Below are positions 53,695 to 61,388 of a DNA stretch of 64,000 nucleotides, piece after piece. The first letter of the stretch is position 1, and every line of letters starts with the position of its first letter. A program made the translations under genes and the position numbers. The stretch is taken from positions 1 to 64,000 of the forward strand of contig JAGQYM010000008.1 of assembly GCA_020436085.1 (NCBI GenBank). Direction: 5' to 3'. Under the pieces are notes generated by a model. The model ran no database searches, was not told the DNA's origin, and saw only the letters and a list, made by a program, of their open reading frames with translations. Source of the stretch: Cyclobacteriaceae bacterium. GTDB lineage: Bacteria; Bacteroidota; Bacteroidia; Cytophagales; Cyclobacteriaceae.

Positions 53695-54456
53695 ATGAAA
53701 AAGTTAATTGTGGGAATGGTGTTGGGATTAGTGATTTCCTCAGCACACGCGCAGGAGTACAAAGTGAACAAAAACAGTGGAAGACTTGAAGTTCATTTAG
53801 GTAAAGCACGAATTGAAGGGTACGATGGCAATGCAATAGTATTTTCTTCAACTGATCATCGTGACAAGACGGACGAACGTGCCAAGGGATTAAAGGCCAT
53901 TAATGGCCTTGGTCTTGAAGACAATACTGGGTTGGGCATTAATGTGTCGGAAAGTGGCGGTGCGGTTGTGGTTCAGCAATTGAAAAGAACTGACTCGCCT
54001 GATATCAGAATTCAAGTGCCCAAAGGAGTGATCGTTGCATTTCAGCATGATTCGCAATACGGTGGCAAGGTAAGATTTGAGAACATGGAGAATGAGATTG
54101 AAGTGTCAGCTCAATATAACAGTGTAGAGATGCGCAATGTGACGGGACCAATGACTGTGAAATCTATCTATGGACATGTGGAGGCTGACTTCAACTCAAC
54201 AATAAAAAACCCGATCTCGATTGTTTCAGTGTATGGCTATGTAGATGTCGCGTTACCGTCAGCCACGAAAGCGAACCTGCGTCTCGATACTTCTTACGGA
54301 GAAATATTTGTGGCGCCTGAGTTTAAGATTGAAGTAACTCCACAGGGCAACATGATCAAGTATAGTGACCGGGTTCAAGGCAAAATAAATGGAGGAGGAG
54401 ATTTGAATATTGATCTAAGCAGCAACTATGGAAAGATTTATCTCAGAAAAAAATAA
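53695..54456 (+). CDS. DUF4097-like secreted beta-helix protein, copy 1
   Basis: 253 residues with a signal peptide (ending AHAQE). The body consists of short beta-turn repeats (VRFENMENEIEVSAQYNSVE, MRNVTGPMTVKSIYGHVEAD) like the DUF4097/DUF2807 head-domain fold, and it ends YGKIYLRKK. It is about half identical by eye with the next gene, sharing GLEDNTG, PKG and ATKANLR blocks. Part of the sigma/anti-sigma operon, so it may be a periplasmic stress reporter or surface protein; function is unknown. Confidence 0.8.
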   Translation: MKKLIVGMVLGLVISSAHAQEYKVNKNSGRLEVHLGKARIEGYDGNAIVFSSTDHRDKTDERAKGLKAINGLGLEDNTGLGINVSESGGAVVVQQLKRTDSPDIRIQVPKGVIVAFQHDSQYGGKVRFENMENEIEVSAQYNSVEMRNVTGPMTVKSIYGHVEADFNSTIKNPISIVSVYGYVDVALPSATKANLRLDTSYGEIFVAPEFKIEVTPQGNMIKYSDRVQGKINGGGDLNIDLSSNYGKIYLRKK

Positions 54457-54481
54457 CGTGAATTATTTAAAGAAAGATTTT

Positions 54482-55243
54482 ATGAAAAGGAGTTTGATGT
54501 TAGTCGTTAGTCTTCTCTCTGTACTTACACTAAGTGCACAAGAGTACAAGCTAGCGAAGTCGAGTGGAAAGCTGGATATCCGCGAGGTGAATGAAGTTAA
54601 GATAGAAGGATATAGCGGCAGCGAAATTATCTTCATCTCAAAAGATTATCGCAGCGACAAGGATGATCGCGCGGCTGGATTGCGAGCTATCAGTAACCTT
54701 GGCCTCGAAGACAACACCGGTATTGGATTATCAGTGGTTGAAACTAATGGCGTCATTGAAGTGAGGCAACTGAAGAAAATGGATGGCCCTGACGTGCTGA
54801 TCAGAATACCAAAGGGTATTAGCGTCAACTATTCGCACACATCTCCTCATGGAAGTGATGTAAGCCTGAGGAATGTGGAAAGCGATATCGATGTTTCCAC
54901 TGTACACAACGATGTTACACTGGAGAATGTAACGGGGGCTGTGAGGGTGAGGACTGTACATGGAGATATCGATGCGATATTCCCTGCGGAAGTCAAGAAT
55001 CAATTGTCTCTCAATTCCACTCATGGTCATGTGGATGTGGCATTGCCCGCATCAACAAAGGCGAACCTGAGAATGTCAACGTCATGGGGCGAGATCTTCG
55101 TGGACCCTTCTTTGAAACTGGAACTTGACAAGACAGGTGACTTCGTAAAATACAGTGACAGACTCAATGCTAAAATGAATGGAGGAGGAACAGAAATAAA
55201 CTTAACATCTACCCATGACAACGTTTACCTTCGCAAAAAATAG
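54482..55243 (+). CDS. DUF4097-like secreted beta-helix protein, copy 2
   Basis: About 253 residues from ATG 54482 (MKRSLMLVVSLLSV); the frame opens earlier at 54428, inside copy 1. Signal peptide ends LSAQ. Closely paralogous to copy 1 along its length (EYKLAKSSGKLDI, GLEDNTGIG, LPASTKANLRMSTSWGEIF), ending NVYLRKK. A recent tandem duplication is the simplest explanation. Confidence 0.8.
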   Translation: MKRSLMLVVSLLSVLTLSAQEYKLAKSSGKLDIREVNEVKIEGYSGSEIIFISKDYRSDKDDRAAGLRAISNLGLEDNTGIGLSVVETNGVIEVRQLKKMDGPDVLIRIPKGISVNYSHTSPHGSDVSLRNVESDIDVSTVHNDVTLENVTGAVRVRTVHGDIDAIFPAEVKNQLSLNSTHGHVDVALPASTKANLRMSTSWGEIFVDPSLKLELDKTGDFVKYSDRLNAKMNGGGTEINLTSTHDNVYLRKK

Positions 55244-55979
55244 GTCCGCAAGAATTTTAGTACTTACGCTAACTTTAGTCAGCTCGTACGTCTTTGGCCA
55301 GCGGCAGATCGATGAAACGATAGCTGTGAAAAGTGGACAAACACTGAATATGAGATTTGATTATCCTGAGTTGATTCGAATCTCTACCTGGGACAAAAAC
55401 GAGATATCAATCAAAGGTACAGTTACCATAAACTTTGGTGCTAATGACGATGCTTTCGAACTCGATATTTCAAACCAGGGAAATGTAATTAGTGTGGAGA
55501 ATCACATCAAGAATATGAAAAGCCTTCCGCAAATAGTCACAATAGTTGATAACGGCAAGAAGATGATATTCAGAACCAAAGAGGAGTATCGGAAGTACAA
55601 AGCAGAGAACGGATCATCCTACGATGTGATGTCATGGGGAGTGGATATGGATATTTTACTTGATATCAAGATTCCTAAGACCATGAAGACTTCTGTTGAG
55701 TCAGTATATGGTATGGTTGAGATCAAGGACTTCTCAGCGCCATTGTCTGTTGTGGCGAAATATGGGGGAGTAGATGCTGCGTTGAATGAGACAATGGTAG
55801 GCGAGCTTAATGCAGAAACAAACTATGGGCAGATTTATTCAAACCTTGATGTGAAGTTTGGAGGGGAGGGGCTCAGAGAGAGAGATTTCTACACGCATGT
55901 ATCGGCAAAGCCTGGAAGAGGGCCTCGCTTTGACTTCGAATCAGAATATGGGAACGTTTACCTGAGGAAGTCGAACTAG
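55215..55979 (+). CDS. DUF4097-like secreted beta-helix protein, copy 3 (diverged)
   Basis: 254 residues. Signal peptide ends VFGQ. Less like the other two but shares their layout and tail, YGMVEIKDFSAPLSVVAKYG and EYGNVYLRKS. The ATG lies 29 bp inside copy 2, which implies coupled translation. A terminator follows at 56000-56037. Confidence 0.78.
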   Translation: MTTFTFAKNRSARILVLTLTLVSSYVFGQRQIDETIAVKSGQTLNMRFDYPELIRISTWDKNEISIKGTVTINFGANDDAFELDISNQGNVISVENHIKNMKSLPQIVTIVDNGKKMIFRTKEEYRKYKAENGSSYDVMSWGVDMDILLDIKIPKTMKTSVESVYGMVEIKDFSAPLSVVAKYGGVDAALNETMVGELNAETNYGQIYSNLDVKFGGEGLRERDFYTHVSAKPGRGPRFDFESEYGNVYLRKSN

Positions 55980-57018: not shown

Positions 57019-57196
57019 AATACTCTCCTTAATATTGGTTTTCAGTGGACACAAAGGTAAGTGTCATCGCCTTAATTCCTGTTAAAATTCCTTCCAAACG
57101 CCAGTTAGGACGATGAATTTTTTTAAAAATTTACATGACGAACGCGGCTCACAAAGAATATTTCACTTTCTTAGCACTGCGAAAGCGAGAAATAAC

Positions 57197-57274
57197 ATGC
57201 TCAACAAGCGATTTTATTTTCACTATTTTTTCTTTCAAACCCGCACGGGACTTGATCGAGTAGCGCTTTGTTGA
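57197..57274 (+). CDS. Phe/Tyr leader peptide of the pheA operon
   Basis: A 25-codon frame from ATG 57197 to TGA 57272-57274. After MLNKR come FYFHYFFF: 5 Phe and 2 Tyr in 8 codons, as in the pheA leader of enteric bacteria. Then QTRTGLDRVALC. Within these later codons CGGGACTT (57246-57253) can pair with AAGTCCCG (57303-57310), the left arm of the terminator. Stalling at Phe/Tyr codons would free it to do so. The ATG lies about 180 bp downstream of the preceding, divergent gene. Confidence 0.85.
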   Translation: MLNKRFYFHYFFFQTRTGLDRVALC

Positions 57275-57299
57275 CAGAAACGATAACAAAAAGAAACTC

Positions 57300-57334
57300 A
57301 GAAAGTCCCGGGAAGCCGGGACTTTCTGCTTTTA
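57300..57334 (+). terminator. Attenuator terminator of the pheA operon
   Basis: AGAAAGTCCCGG, a GAAG loop and CCGGGACTTTCT form a perfect 12-bp stem followed by GCTTTT. It lies between the leader peptide stop and the pheA ATG at 57343. Its left arm can pair with the leader ORF (57246-57253). Confidence 0.9.
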
Positions 57335-57342
57335 GAGGGTTT

Positions 57343-58182
57343 ATGAATAAGAAGCAAAAAGTAAGAGTAGCTATTCAAGGCATCGCCACCAGTTTTCACG
57401 AAGTGGCTGCCATGCAATACTTCGGAACAGATATTCAGACTATTGAATGCCTTAGCTTTCACGCCTTGTGTGAGTCTTTGAATGATAACACTGCAGACTA
57501 TGCAGTAATGGCGATTGAAAACTCAATAGCGGGTAGCATTCTCCCAAACTACTTTCTTTTACAACAAAATCATTTCAATATCCTGGGTGAAGTGTATCAG
57601 CCCATTCACATGCATCTGTTGGCGCTGCCTGGTGTGAAGTTGAAGGACATCAAAACGATTGAATCTCATCCGATGGCTATTCGCCAGTGCTCGGATTTCC
57701 TGTATCGACTGCCCAATGTTGAGATTCGTGAAAGTGACGACACCGCTTTGTCAGCAAAAAAAGTTAGAGTCGAAAGTTTGAAAGACACCGCTGCCATTGC
57801 CAACGAGCAAGCAGCCAAAAAATACAAACTGAATATTCTTGAGAAAAGAATTGAAACACACAAAAAGAACTTCACCCGTTTTCTCATTCTTTCTAAAAAG
57901 GATGCAGTTCAAAAAACACCCAACAAAGCCTCATTGTCATTCGAAGTGGCTAATGAAGTAGGTAGCCTGGCCGATGCCCTGATGACTTTCAAGAATGAAG
58001 GCATCAACCTTACGAAGATTCAGTCGGTACCCATCATTGGCAAACCAAGTGAATACACGATTCACATAGATGTGGAATGGAAGAAGAGGAAAAGTTATGA
58101 TGACGCCATTCGATTGGTATTGCGACAGGTGCGAAATCTGAATGTGATGGGCGAATACAAAAAGGCAGCGATTAAATTTTAA
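57343..58182 (+). CDS. pheA: Prephenate dehydratase
   Basis: 279 residues from ATG 57343 (MNKKQKVRVAIQGI); the open frame reaches back to 57268, over the terminator, which cannot be coding. The catalytic domain shows YAVMAIENSIAGSI, ESHPMAIRQCSDFL and KKNFTRFLIL (the TRF motif), and an ACT domain follows from about 200 (SLSFEVANEVGSLADALMTF). No chorismate mutase is fused; that activity is on the DAHP synthase at 60288. First gene of the aromatic operon. Confidence 0.93.
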   Translation: MNKKQKVRVAIQGIATSFHEVAAMQYFGTDIQTIECLSFHALCESLNDNTADYAVMAIENSIAGSILPNYFLLQQNHFNILGEVYQPIHMHLLALPGVKLKDIKTIESHPMAIRQCSDFLYRLPNVEIRESDDTALSAKKVRVESLKDTAAIANEQAAKKYKLNILEKRIETHKKNFTRFLILSKKDAVQKTPNKASLSFEVANEVGSLADALMTFKNEGINLTKIQSVPIIGKPSEYTIHIDVEWKKRKSYDDAIRLVLRQVRNLNVMGEYKKAAIKF

Positions 58183-58186
58183 AGAG

Positions 58187-59383
58187 ATGATTAAAACAGC
58201 AAAACGGATAGCGCAGGTTGAGGAATACTACTTCTCGAAAAAACTTCAAGAAGTTAGAAGTCTTGATTCTCCCGATTTTCCCGTAATCAATTTGGGGATC
58301 GGAAGTCCAGACCTTATGCCAGGCGAAGAGACTATTGCTGCACTTTCTAAAACAGCATCGCAGTCCACAAGTCACGGCTATCAAAACTATAAAGGTGTGC
58401 CAGCACTGCGTCAAGCAATTGCTGATTTTTCAAAACGTATTTATGGTGTTGATCTAAATCACAATGATGAGATACTTCCGTTGATGGGATCAAAGGAAGG
58501 TATCATGCACATCTCGATGGCCTTTGTAGATGAAGGAGACAGAGTGCTCATTCCTGATCCTGGTTATCCCACCTATGCTTCGGTTTCGAAACTGGTAGGA
58601 GCAAACATTGAAACCTACAAGCTAAGGGCTGATCGCGGATGGCAGGTTGATATCGAAGACCTTGAGTCTCGTGATCTCTCACAAGTTAAGATCATGTGGC
58701 TTAACAGTCCTCACATGCCAACCGGCAGTGTGATGGACAAAATCATTATGGAGAGAATTATTTCCCTGGCGAAGAAGAATAAGTTTTTGGTGGTAAATGA
58801 TAATCCTTACAGTTTAATTCTTAATAACCGCCCGGAAAGCCTGCTGTCAATTGAAGGTGTAGAGGACGTTGCGTTGGAGCTAAACTCTCTAAGCAAATCA
58901 CACAACATGGCAGGTTGGCGAGTTGGCTGGGTTGCGGGAAAGAAGGAGTTGATTGACGCTGTTTTGAAAGTGAAAAGCAATATGGACTCCGGTATGTTTC
59001 TCGGACTTCAAAATGCCGCAGTTGAAGCTCTCGGTCAAACAAAGCAGTGGTTTGACAATCTTAACGCCACATACAAAAAGCGAAGAAAACTTGCGTTCGA
59101 AATATTAGATGAGTTGGAGTGCGTGTATGATGAAAATCAAGTAGGGCTATTTGTTTGGGCAAAAGCGCCCGAGCATGTGCGTAGTGTTGAGAAGTGGATT
59201 GATGAAATTCTCTATGGCTCAAAGGTTTTCATTACGCCTGGGTTCATTTTTGGTGATGCTGGAAAAGAGTTTGTTCGGATTTCATTGTGCGCCAATGAAG
59301 ACAATTTGCGAAAAGCAAAGGAGCGAATTGAGAAATTAAAAATTGAAGGTAAGTCAAAACAAAGAATGAAGGCGGCATCATGA
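58187..59383 (+). CDS. PLP-dependent aminotransferase (aromatic amino acids)
   Basis: 398 residues, fold type I class I/II. GSKEGIMHISMAFVDEGD, PDPGYPTYASVSKLVG, and NSLSKSHNMAGWRVGWVAG, with the PLP Lys in SLSKSH, are visible. In this operon it probably transfers amino groups to phenylpyruvate and hydroxyphenylpyruvate, or to prephenate. It starts 4 bp after pheA and overlaps tyrA by 4 bp. Confidence 0.9.
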   Translation: MIKTAKRIAQVEEYYFSKKLQEVRSLDSPDFPVINLGIGSPDLMPGEETIAALSKTASQSTSHGYQNYKGVPALRQAIADFSKRIYGVDLNHNDEILPLMGSKEGIMHISMAFVDEGDRVLIPDPGYPTYASVSKLVGANIETYKLRADRGWQVDIEDLESRDLSQVKIMWLNSPHMPTGSVMDKIIMERIISLAKKNKFLVVNDNPYSLILNNRPESLLSIEGVEDVALELNSLSKSHNMAGWRVGWVAGKKELIDAVLKVKSNMDSGMFLGLQNAAVEALGQTKQWFDNLNATYKKRRKLAFEILDELECVYDENQVGLFVWAKAPEHVRSVEKWIDEILYGSKVFITPGFIFGDAGKEFVRISLCANEDNLRKAKERIEKLKIEGKSKQRMKAAS

Positions 59384-60276
59384 AAGTAACTGTTGTTGGA
59401 CTAGGATTAATTGGCGGATCAATAGCGCGCGACTTGCGAAAGAACGGTCTCACATCTGAGATTATTGGCGTTGATCAAAATGAGGCTCATGGCGATTTGG
59501 CTGTGCGACTAGGAATTGTTGACAAGGTTTCAACACTCGAAGCTGCATTGAGTGAATCGAACGTTTGCATTTTGTCGATACCTGTCAATGCTGTAACAAA
59601 GGTATTGCCATTGATTCTTGATCAGGTGAAAGACTCAACCATTGTAATTGACACAGGCTCTACCAAGGCAGCTATTTGCAAGGCCGTAAGTCATCATAAG
59701 AACAGAAGCCAATTTGTTGCAGCACATCCGATAGCGGGAACGGAGAATTCTGGACCCGAAGCCGCACTCAACGGATTGTTTGAAAACAAGACGATGATTA
59801 TTTGCGAAAAGCAAAAATCGTCAGATCATGCATTGCATGTAGCTGATCAGATTTTTAGAGCACTCAAGGTGAGAACAATCTTTATGGAGCCGGTAGAACA
59901 TGACAAGCACGTTGCGTACGTTTCACATCTCTCCCACGTGAGTTCATTTTTACTTGGACAAACCGTAATGGATATAGAAAAAGATGAGAGAAATATTTTT
60001 GCGCTGGCGGGAAGCGGTTTCGCATCGACCGTTCGACTTGCAAAAAGTTCTCCAGATATGTGGGCTCCCATTTTTGAACAAAATGTAGAGTATCTCAGCC
60101 AGGCACTACTGGAATATATCATGCACTTGCAACGATTTCACTATCATCTCATGAAGAAAGACACAGCTGAAGTGCACAGAATAATGAGTCAAGCCAACGA
60201 TATCAGACGTGTCTTGAGCGGTATAGAACTAAACGAACAAAAGAACAATAAAGTAGAATCATTAATTGAAGATTAA
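59380..60276 (+). CDS. tyrA: Prephenate dehydrogenase
   Basis: 298 residues. NAD-binding loop VTVVGLGLIGGSIARDLRKN, then VIDTGSTKAAI and FVAAHPIAGTENSGPEAA, catalytic His in HVAYVSHLSHVSSFLL. It converts prephenate to 4-hydroxyphenylpyruvate for tyrosine. The frame lacks a fused chorismate mutase or ACT domain. Confidence 0.93.
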   Translation: MKVTVVGLGLIGGSIARDLRKNGLTSEIIGVDQNEAHGDLAVRLGIVDKVSTLEAALSESNVCILSIPVNAVTKVLPLILDQVKDSTIVIDTGSTKAAICKAVSHHKNRSQFVAAHPIAGTENSGPEAALNGLFENKTMIICEKQKSSDHALHVADQIFRALKVRTIFMEPVEHDKHVAYVSHLSHVSSFLLGQTVMDIEKDERNIFALAGSGFASTVRLAKSSPDMWAPIFEQNVEYLSQALLEYIMHLQRFHYHLMKKDTAEVHRIMSQANDIRRVLSGIELNEQKNNKVESLIED

Positions 60277-60287
60277 ATAGAGCCAAA

Positions 60288-61388
60288 ATGAAAAAGGAAT
60301 TGAACATATCACCATTGCAGAGCTGGACGAAAGCAGACCGCCCATTGATCATCAGTGGTCCATGTAGTGCAGAGAGTGAAAATCAAATGGTGAGCACTGC
60401 AAAGCTGTTAGCAGCATTGGGGAAAGTGAACGTATTGCGAGCAGGAATTTGGAAACCTCGCACTCGCCCTGGCCAATATGAAGGAGCAGGAAGCGAAGGA
60501 CTGAATTGGTTGATCAAAGCGAAACAGGAGACTGGTCTTCCGGTAGCTACCGAAGTAGCCACTGCGGCTCATGTGGAAGAATGTCTCAGGGCCGGTGTCG
60601 ATATCCTTTGGGTAGGCGCGCGTACTACCGTCAATCCATTTTCAGTTCAGGAAGTTGCGAATGCTCTGCAAGGAGTTGATGTGCCTGTGTTGGTGAAGAA
60701 CCCAGTCAACCCTGATCTTGAGTTGTGGATTGGAGCACTCGAAAGATTGAATCGTGCTGGAATTAAGAAATTGGCAGCGATCCATCGTGGTTTTTCATCC
60801 TTCGAAAAAGGTCCATTTAGAAATGCGCCCATGTGGGATATTGCAATTGAACTGAAAACCAGATTCCCTGAGCTGGATATCATCTGTGATCCTAGCCACA
60901 TTGCTGGCCAACGTGAGTTGATTCCATTTATAGCTCAAAAAGCACTGGATCTTGATATGGCAGGTTTGATGATTGAGAGTCACATTGAACCGTCAGTCGC
61001 GCTTAGCGATGCCAAGCAACAAGTGACACCGTCTGCGTTAGGCAAAATCCTTGATGATTTGGTTGTGAGGACGCCTTCAACGGCCAATAAAGAATTCAAA
61101 AGCACACTTACAATACTTCGCGAGCAGATTGATCAATTGGATGACAAGATTATGCAAACGATGGCAGCCCGTATGAAAATCTCTGAGCAAATCGGAAATT
61201 ACAAGAGAGACAACAACGTGACTATCCTTCAGGTAAACCGCTGGGAAGAAATCATTGAAACCAGAATTTCTCAAGGTAATGCGATGGGATTGACTAGTGA
61301 GTTTGTTAACAATTTATTAAAGCTGGTTCATAACGAATCTATTCAGGTACAACAGAAAGTAATGAATACCGCTGGACAGAACGTCTGA
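60288..61388 (+). CDS. DAHP synthase / chorismate mutase fusion
   Basis: 366 residues. The first 265 form a type I-beta DAHP synthase (IISGPCSAESENQMV, RAGIWKPRTRPGQYEGAG, AIHRGFSS, DPSHIAGQRELIP). From about 275 an AroQ-type chorismate mutase follows (LREQIDQLDDKIMQTMAARM, KISEQIGNYKRDNNVTI). The fusion covers the first committed and a branch step of aromatic synthesis; in such fusions the mutase part also carries feedback control. It ends the pheA operon. Confidence 0.94.
   Translation: MKKELNISPLQSWTKADRPLIISGPCSAESENQMVSTAKLLAALGKVNVLRAGIWKPRTRPGQYEGAGSEGLNWLIKAKQETGLPVATEVATAAHVEECLRAGVDILWVGARTTVNPFSVQEVANALQGVDVPVLVKNPVNPDLELWIGALERLNRAGIKKLAAIHRGFSSFEKGPFRNAPMWDIAIELKTRFPELDIICDPSHIAGQRELIPFIAQKALDLDMAGLMIESHIEPSVALSDAKQQVTPSALGKILDDLVVRTPSTANKEFKSTLTILREQIDQLDDKIMQTMAARMKISEQIGNYKRDNNVTILQVNRWEEIIETRISQGNAMGLTSEFVNNLLKLVHNESIQVQQKVMNTAGQNV

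Follow-up and report, generated by a model that had tools for sequence, protein, structure and literature searches.

A putative ribosome-mediated attenuator with phenylalanine and tyrosine control codons upstream of the pheA operon in Cyclobacteriaceae and other Bacteroidota

The pheA operon and its leader region

The window analysed here comprises 64,000 nt of contig JAGQYM010000008.1 (GCA_020436085.1, Cyclobacteriaceae bacterium; positions 1-64,000, forward strand), from a source genome of 4.42 Mb in 191 contigs. Four tightly spaced genes on the + strand form an operon in the order pheA, aminotransferase, prephenate dehydrogenase and DAHP synthase/chorismate mutase, and the putative attenuator is located directly 5' of them. 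The first gene, pheA (57343..58182), encodes a prephenate dehydratase (PF00800 over cut-off), with an ACT domain match and a best NCBIfam model that are both below their cut-offs. It is followed by a class I/II aminotransferase (58187..59383; Pfam PF00155), for which no NCBIfam model over cut-off was found among the best 25 of 75 and which is probably aromatic on the basis of its operon membership, by a prephenate dehydrogenase of the TyrA type (59380..60276; NF006307 over cut-off, PF02153) and by a DAHP synthase-chorismate mutase fusion (60288..61388; PF00793 and PF01817 over cut-off). An earlier, sequence-only reading of this DNA described the operon as making both amino acids and the shared first enzyme, which agrees with this gene content; the first enzyme encoded here is one of three, since the genome (G000) has two further DAHP synthase-like genes (C108:40569-41342 and C125:88113-88883), of which one exceeds the I-beta model cut-off and the other scores like the operon enzyme. 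DAHP synthases of type II were found in none of 58 genomes, and the viral contigs scanned with pheA gave no match. Three tandem, slightly overlapping ORFs at 53695-55979 of the window share similar stretches and look like paralogues.

Directly before the operon, a frame of 25 codons on the + strand encodes the leader peptide MLNKRFYFHYFFFQTRTGLDRVALC (57197..57274; ATG at 57197, TGA at 57272-57274), and its control codons, FYFHYFFF (57212..57235), are as the sequence-only reading had them. No other ATG-started frame of 8-45 codons on either strand of the 64 kb window was found to have as many as six F/Y in eight residues, and when the 300 nt preceding pheA were dinucleotide-shuffled 5000 times, the density of 7/8 seen in this frame was reached once. 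An intrinsic terminator with the tail CTTTTAG is predicted between the leader and pheA (57299..57335, + strand; -24.0 kcal/mol). Its stem, with arms at 57299-57311 and 57316-57328 and the loop GAAG, lies 14 nt from the pheA ATG and is perfect over 13 bp; the hairpin had been recognised before as perfect, with a length of 12 bp that needs correction. The U-tract of the window is weak, consisting of CTTTTAG only, which is why the hairpin is absent from the + strand results of a simple terminator scan.

Within the leader, CGGGACTT (57246-57253) is exactly complementary over 8 bp to AAGTCCCG (57303-57310) in the left terminator arm, which confirms the complement described earlier; a perfect 8-nt complement to that arm arose in 56 of 20,000 shuffles of the leader tail. 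The predicted antiterminator is longer than the 8 bp originally given to it, as the helix runs inward past this core through GAG/CTC and TTTGTT/AACAAA. Its 5' side, region 2 (CGGGACTT, GAG, TTTGTT), spans 57246..57272 and its 3' side, region 3 (AACAAA, CTC, AAGTCCCG), spans 57285..57310, both on the + strand, and the terminator corresponds to region 3 paired with region 4. The earlier picture of two structures was incomplete, having missed a competing upstream stem in which region 1 (TCAACAAGCG; 57201..57210, + strand) pairs with the leader end TTTGTTGA (57267-57274), with AGCG/CGCT at 57264-57267. The consensus fold of 30 sequences also contains a small CCC/GGG hairpin (57240..57249, + strand) just 5' of GGGACTT, which would hide the antiterminator arm; it is predicted from the alignment, and none of its pairs is changed on both sides. 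The fold energy of the leader RNA was equalled by none of 200 shuffles (z = -3.99).

Further upstream, at 57095..57108, lies a conserved palindrome, CTAAC-N4-GTTAG (CAAACGCCAGTTAG in the window), a possible operator that raises the question of a dedicated regulator acting at this putative site. It is present with at most one mismatch in 30/30 genus loci, window included, 97-114 nt before the RFYF codons. A U-rich tract with CTTTCTT (57160-57174 in the window) is conserved in the relatives shortly before the leader start and perhaps serves ribosome entry. The genus alignment displays conserved blocks 5' of the leader, and a sigma-70-type scan of the window, the consensus of which is not of the Bacteroidota type, found no promoter-like site on the + strand between the leader and pheA; these results thus give no sign that transcription begins 3' of the leader. 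No Bacteroidota-type promoter was recognised in the window by eye.

Conservation in the genus and distribution among Bacteroidota

The pheA gene was found in 47 of 58 genomes, including that of the window, and in 32 of the 36 genomes of its genus. Among named records, the nearest pheA genes (76-79% identity) belong to Cyclobacteriaceae and Flammeovirgaceae MAGs and to Chryseosolibacter indicus. The 30 best pheA loci, with the window among them, constitute our genus set, and a covariance model of 137 positions (R1) was built on these sequences. At E 0.001 or better, R1 gave one copy in 32 of the 36 genus genomes, always before pheA, and no further matches in them under strict filters with 56 candidates scored per genome, so that weak copies could be missed. 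The matches in two genomes outside the model set (G018 and G026) are directly before pheA pieces, and the four genus genomes without an R1 match are 76-79% complete and also have no pheA match. A match outside the genus (44.3 bits, in G044, a genome of another family) was discarded as an ordinary terminator between two genes.

All 30 pheA loci of the genus set, window included, have an RFYF-type leader with an F/Y run, and a single one of these leaders, L026, is frameshifted, by a 1-nt deletion. The pheA of its genome (G023) carries an in-frame stop; sequencing error and decay are both possible. This locus was left out of the codon tally and of the energy and probability, shuffle, permutation and tree sets, and was kept in the alignments, the complement survey, the upstream-block count and both covariation counts. 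Although the genus leaders differ in their C-terminal residues and in where they stop, GGGACTTGA and its partner are mostly retained; conservation thus seems to act on codons in the first half of the leader and on RNA in the second. The best complement between leader and terminator arm measures 6-9 bp in 30/30 genus loci, always at the same leader position, and it changes along with the arms (CGGGGCTT/AAGCCCCG in L011 and L016; GGGGGATT/AATCCCCC in L024/L025). The leader frame and the alternative pairing thus persist in the relatives, with pairing-preserving changes, and this comparison of upstream regions supports the original interpretation of a Phe/Tyr attenuator.

The stem between region 1 and the leader end occurs in 27 of the 30 genus loci, mostly as AGCGAT/ATCGCT or CCGAT/ATCGG; it is missing from L023 and L027 and displaced in L029. 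Covariation was detected at one of the seven pairs of this stem (counted in 11 of 29 distinct rows). For the seven-pair antiterminator, one of the two alternative stems whose covariance had been named as a check on the earlier reading, it was not above shuffles on a plain MAFFT alignment. We ascribe the latter result to terminator arms that are out of register in several rows of that alignment; register-free tests were positive.

The distribution in and outside the genus was surveyed in 164 best-match pheA loci (30 from the genus, 54 from order and phylum searches and 80 named), in which several genomes occur twice. A frame with at least five F/Y in eight residues was found within 330 nt of pheA in 137 of them, and the 27 loci without one include L026, where the frame runs on. 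In family f16, 11 of 16 loci have no F/Y leader and the remaining five are doubtful; F/Y leaders are also absent from the four loci of family f20, from two loci of another genus of the window's own family (L081 and L082) and, among the named loci, from Draconibacterium, Prevotellaceae and two Flavobacteriales records.

In the codon tally and in the shuffle, permutation and tree tests, identical leader DNA was counted once. A terminator hairpin of at least five pairs with a T-rich tail precedes pheA in 119/119 distinct leaders, and in 117 its energy is -8 kcal/mol or better. For 102 of these 117, the pairing of the leader with its own terminator arm was matched by at most five of 100 shuffles of the leader tail (L057, where two candidate leaders tie, was left out); by set, 40 of 41 Cyclobacteriaceae-type leaders, 48 of 51 other named ones (mostly Sphingobacteriaceae) and 14 of 25 from the mixed order, class and phylum searches paired better than shuffles. 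When the partners were permuted, none of 10,000 permutations was as good on average, with either all 117 leaders or 36 variants, a result that is inflated by relatedness. These 36 variants are loci in which the detected arm lacks AGTCCC, and in just 12 of them did the locus's own partner outdo both consensus sets. Sphingobacteriaceae leaders mostly end in SKSRD before the stop, with CCGGGACT paired with AGTCCCGG, and family f26, which was taken for Flavobacteriaceae, displays pairs such as GGGATT/AATCCC and AGGATT/AATCCT. F/Y leaders with such pairing precede pheA in Sphingobacteriaceae and, less uniformly, elsewhere, and some families are without them. One F/Y leader (L103) comes from a record titled as a Legionellaceae MAG, probably a mislabelled bin; its pheA is 59% identical to that of the window and ranked among Sphingobacteriaceae.

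The control stretches of 120 distinct leaders contain 474 F and 427 Y. The remaining residues are 57 G, 29 W, 20 N, 15 S, 6 A, 6 T, 2 H and a single V, R and L, and no I, M or C was found in these stretches.

Proposed attenuation mechanism and alternative explanations

These data indicate that the aromatic operon is very probably controlled by ribosome-mediated transcription attenuation, with an element that reads both Phe and Tyr. This element combines the features of a classical attenuator: an ORF rich in cognate codons, a terminator before the first gene, an overlapping and mutually exclusive antiterminator and a 1:2 stem. From the computed sequence features, conservation, mutually exclusive pairings and fold energies we infer leader translation, stalling, termination, the response to amino acids and the ribosome footprint.

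According to this model, RNA polymerase would transcribe the leader while a ribosome reads it. When charged tRNA-Phe or tRNA-Tyr runs low, the ribosome would pause within FYFHYFFF; a stall on the first control codons would cover region 1 (57201-57210), a stall on the last ones would cover the CCC arm (57240-57242), and either would free region 2 to form the long antiterminator with region 3, so that no terminator would form and pheA and the following genes would be transcribed. When Phe and Tyr are plentiful, the ribosome would reach the stop at 57272-57274 and cover about 57254-57272, leaving the CGGGACTT core uncovered; the inner antiterminator pairs would then be lost, region 3 would pair with region 4 and transcription would end before pheA.

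Energies were averaged over 29 genus loci (L026 dropped) with the core helix enforced and with an assumed ribosome footprint of 18 nt upstream and 14 nt downstream of the A-site codon. The mean values were -19.1 kcal/mol for the terminator, -18.0 for the antiterminator with its inner part free and -10.1 with a ribosome at the stop, a loss of about 8 kcal/mol; the corresponding values for the window are -24.0, -21.7 and -9.9 kcal/mol. A ribosome at the stop weakened the antiterminator by at least 3 kcal/mol or covered at least three core bases in 29/29 loci, and a ribosome placed on the first control codon left the antiterminator with a probability of at least 0.67 in 29/29. When the RNA ends at region 3 and carries no ribosome, the window's antiterminator is favoured at equilibrium (P 1.00), the region 1 stem there being too weak to displace it, and P was below 0.6 in just 9/29 loci. 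With the ribosome at the stop, the antiterminator core still had P of at least 0.9 in 18/29 loci, window included, so that termination in the model requires the terminator to outcompete a weakened antiterminator.

Another possibility is that control of initiation through the upstream palindrome dominates and that the attenuator is a minor fine-tuner. The presence of the palindrome in all genus loci is in keeping with this. An exact search of 23 genus genomes for the extended palindrome ACTAAC-N4-GTTAGT gave matches in five, each of which has it at pheA; one of the five, G009, has an extra site, and one site was also recorded in G045, of another family. We consider such a dominant role unlikely, since the whole attenuator is under constraint, and the two layers may coexist. 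It is less probable still, and in our view quite improbable, that the hairpin acts mainly on pheA translation, or that the leader serves translational coupling, with no part for termination: the short distance from hairpin to pheA in the window (57328 to 57343) and its weak U-tract would fit, but the hairpin is clearly farther from the pheA start in L013-L015 and many relatives have T-rich tails 3' of the stem. Finally, it is highly improbable that the F/Y run merely reflects a U-rich 5' leader, such as a ribosome-entry or protein-binding tract, without serving as codons: the F/Y tract is U-rich and another conserved U-rich tract lies just upstream, yet the control stretches of the 120 distinct leaders hold 29 W against one L, one V and no I, M or C, the sole frameshifted leader among 30 comes from a genome whose pheA has an in-frame stop, and third codon positions vary at 9/10 sites compared with 4/10 first positions (24 aligned genus rows, six dropped for gaps).

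Comparison with known leaders and gain of tryptophan codons

The enterobacterial pheL leader is known to read Phe only, whereas Tyr is nearly as frequent as Phe in the Bacteroidota leaders. The putative Phe/Tyr attenuator is otherwise like the Phe_leader family (RF01859), with a short Phe-rich ORF, alternative stems, a terminator before pheA and a similar length and layout. RF01859 matches the window end to end with 34.6 bits, below its curated gathering score of 55, and matches the same place in 8/8 relatives tested with 32.2-55.2 bits, one of them over 55 (L178, 55.2); at the cut-off, 0/39 genomes had a match. Many paired positions of RF01859 are unpaired in the window. The genome of the window gave 25 weak matches, the best of which lies at another place, so that the match in the window is no proof of common descent. 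Homology to RF01859 was set aside as an explanation, the window being under the curated threshold and weak matches being common. Many matches to this family around 28-40 bits occur elsewhere in these genomes, and weak ones therefore tell little. As to T-boxes, a cmscan of the whole window at gathering scores lists three tRNAs only, and no T-box is among the eight matches up to E 10 at 57050-57360. The enterobacterial ilvGMEDA and thr leaders are multivalent, one leader reading several related amino acids; the Bacteroidota aromatic leader resembles them in multivalency and differs in pathway and phylum.

In Bacteroides thetaiotaomicron, of the same phylum, a putative attenuator was listed in 2005 upstream of an orthologous operon with the same enzyme set, pheA > hisHb > aroAIbeta-aroQ > tyrA (Table 7 of PMC1173090); it comes from a database of predicted attenuators, and no leader peptide or structure is described in the accessible part of that paper, which also gives putative attenuators before tyrA operons of several phyla with the sensor not described there (PMC1173090). 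In Flavobacterium psychrophilum and other Flavobacteriaceae, a conserved structured 5' element of the same gene, with no Rfam match, was reported in 2021, together with hints of leader-peptide attenuation for amino-acid operons; its leader sequence, codons and switch are not given in the available sections (PMC9723704). Long 5' UTRs of B. thetaiotaomicron contain short ORFs reminiscent of leader peptides (PMC7366714, as far as its available text goes). According to the accessible parts of two older papers, leader-peptide systems had been described earlier only from Proteobacteria and Actinobacteria, the cases of that 2010 survey itself being from Firmicutes (PMC2965389), and tyrosine genes were described in 2005 as being controlled at the RNA level by T-boxes (PMC1262725). 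No description of a Phe/Tyr/Trp leader in Bacteroidota was found in the open-access literature, to the extent of the text available there. The predicted element is of a known kind, an unusual multivalent aromatic leader; what is new is its apparent anatomy, its breadth and the repeated gain of Trp codons suggested by the sequences. The Phe/Tyr (often Trp) leader in several Bacteroidota families represents a conserved, testable attenuator with Tyr codons, and its members, mostly below the curated Phe_leader cut-off, offer a natural series for the evolution of control codons alongside pathway genes.

Tryptophan codons are two base changes away from F/Y codons, and those of S, C, L, I, V and others are one. 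W was found in 37 of 114 leaders. On the pheA tree of these leaders, from which six doubtful ones (L079, L035-L038 and L054) were left out, W (37 rows) needs 19 changes, S/H (13 rows) seven and L/I/V/M/C (2 rows) two; W counts as a control residue in delimiting the stretch, which favours W at its edges. The repeated gain of Trp codons suggests that Phe, Tyr and Trp are all read by many forms of the leader.

In the Cyclobacteriaceae-type clade, W is present in 0/19 genomes with a type I-beta DAHP synthase versus 13/18 without one (Fisher 2.4e-6, without kinship correction), where absence of the I-beta enzyme from MAGs (several genomes) may be an assembly gap. The enzyme was typed by TIGR01361 for the relatives (G025 on a contig-end fragment) and by length and score of PF00793 for the rest, and four genomes under 90% complete that have no I-beta enzyme (G004, G006, G014 and G029) were left out of this table. 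On the tree, the Cyclobacteriaceae-type rows gave three supported pairs (on average 2.1 as predicted, 0.9 undecided and 0 against) and all 92 rows gave ten (1.7, 8.3 and 0, respectively); neither test can reach significance because the supported independent contrasts are too few. For L057, the first used the candidate leader without W and the second the candidate closer to pheA; the latter contains W although its genome has an I-beta enzyme, and is thus an exception. Most Sphingobacteriaceae genomes have two PF00793 matches, which we read as the operon enzyme and a KDO8P synthase, yet only some of them have W, so the link is one-sided at best.

We tentatively raise the possibility, which we regard as rather doubtful, that many Bacteroidota have a single sensor for three aromatic amino acids, with W where the DAHP synthase of the operon is not backed by a stand-alone I-beta enzyme and no W where it is so backed. 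If true, the codon content of the leader would report how the cell divides the shikimate pathway. The GG shared by W and G codons might instead have a reason at the RNA level. Two sister loci contrast in the predicted manner, L028 with an I-beta enzyme and no W and L030 with W and no I-beta enzyme, and the W-bearing genomes G058, G109, G513 and G516 encode a further DAHP synthase of the type found in the operon.
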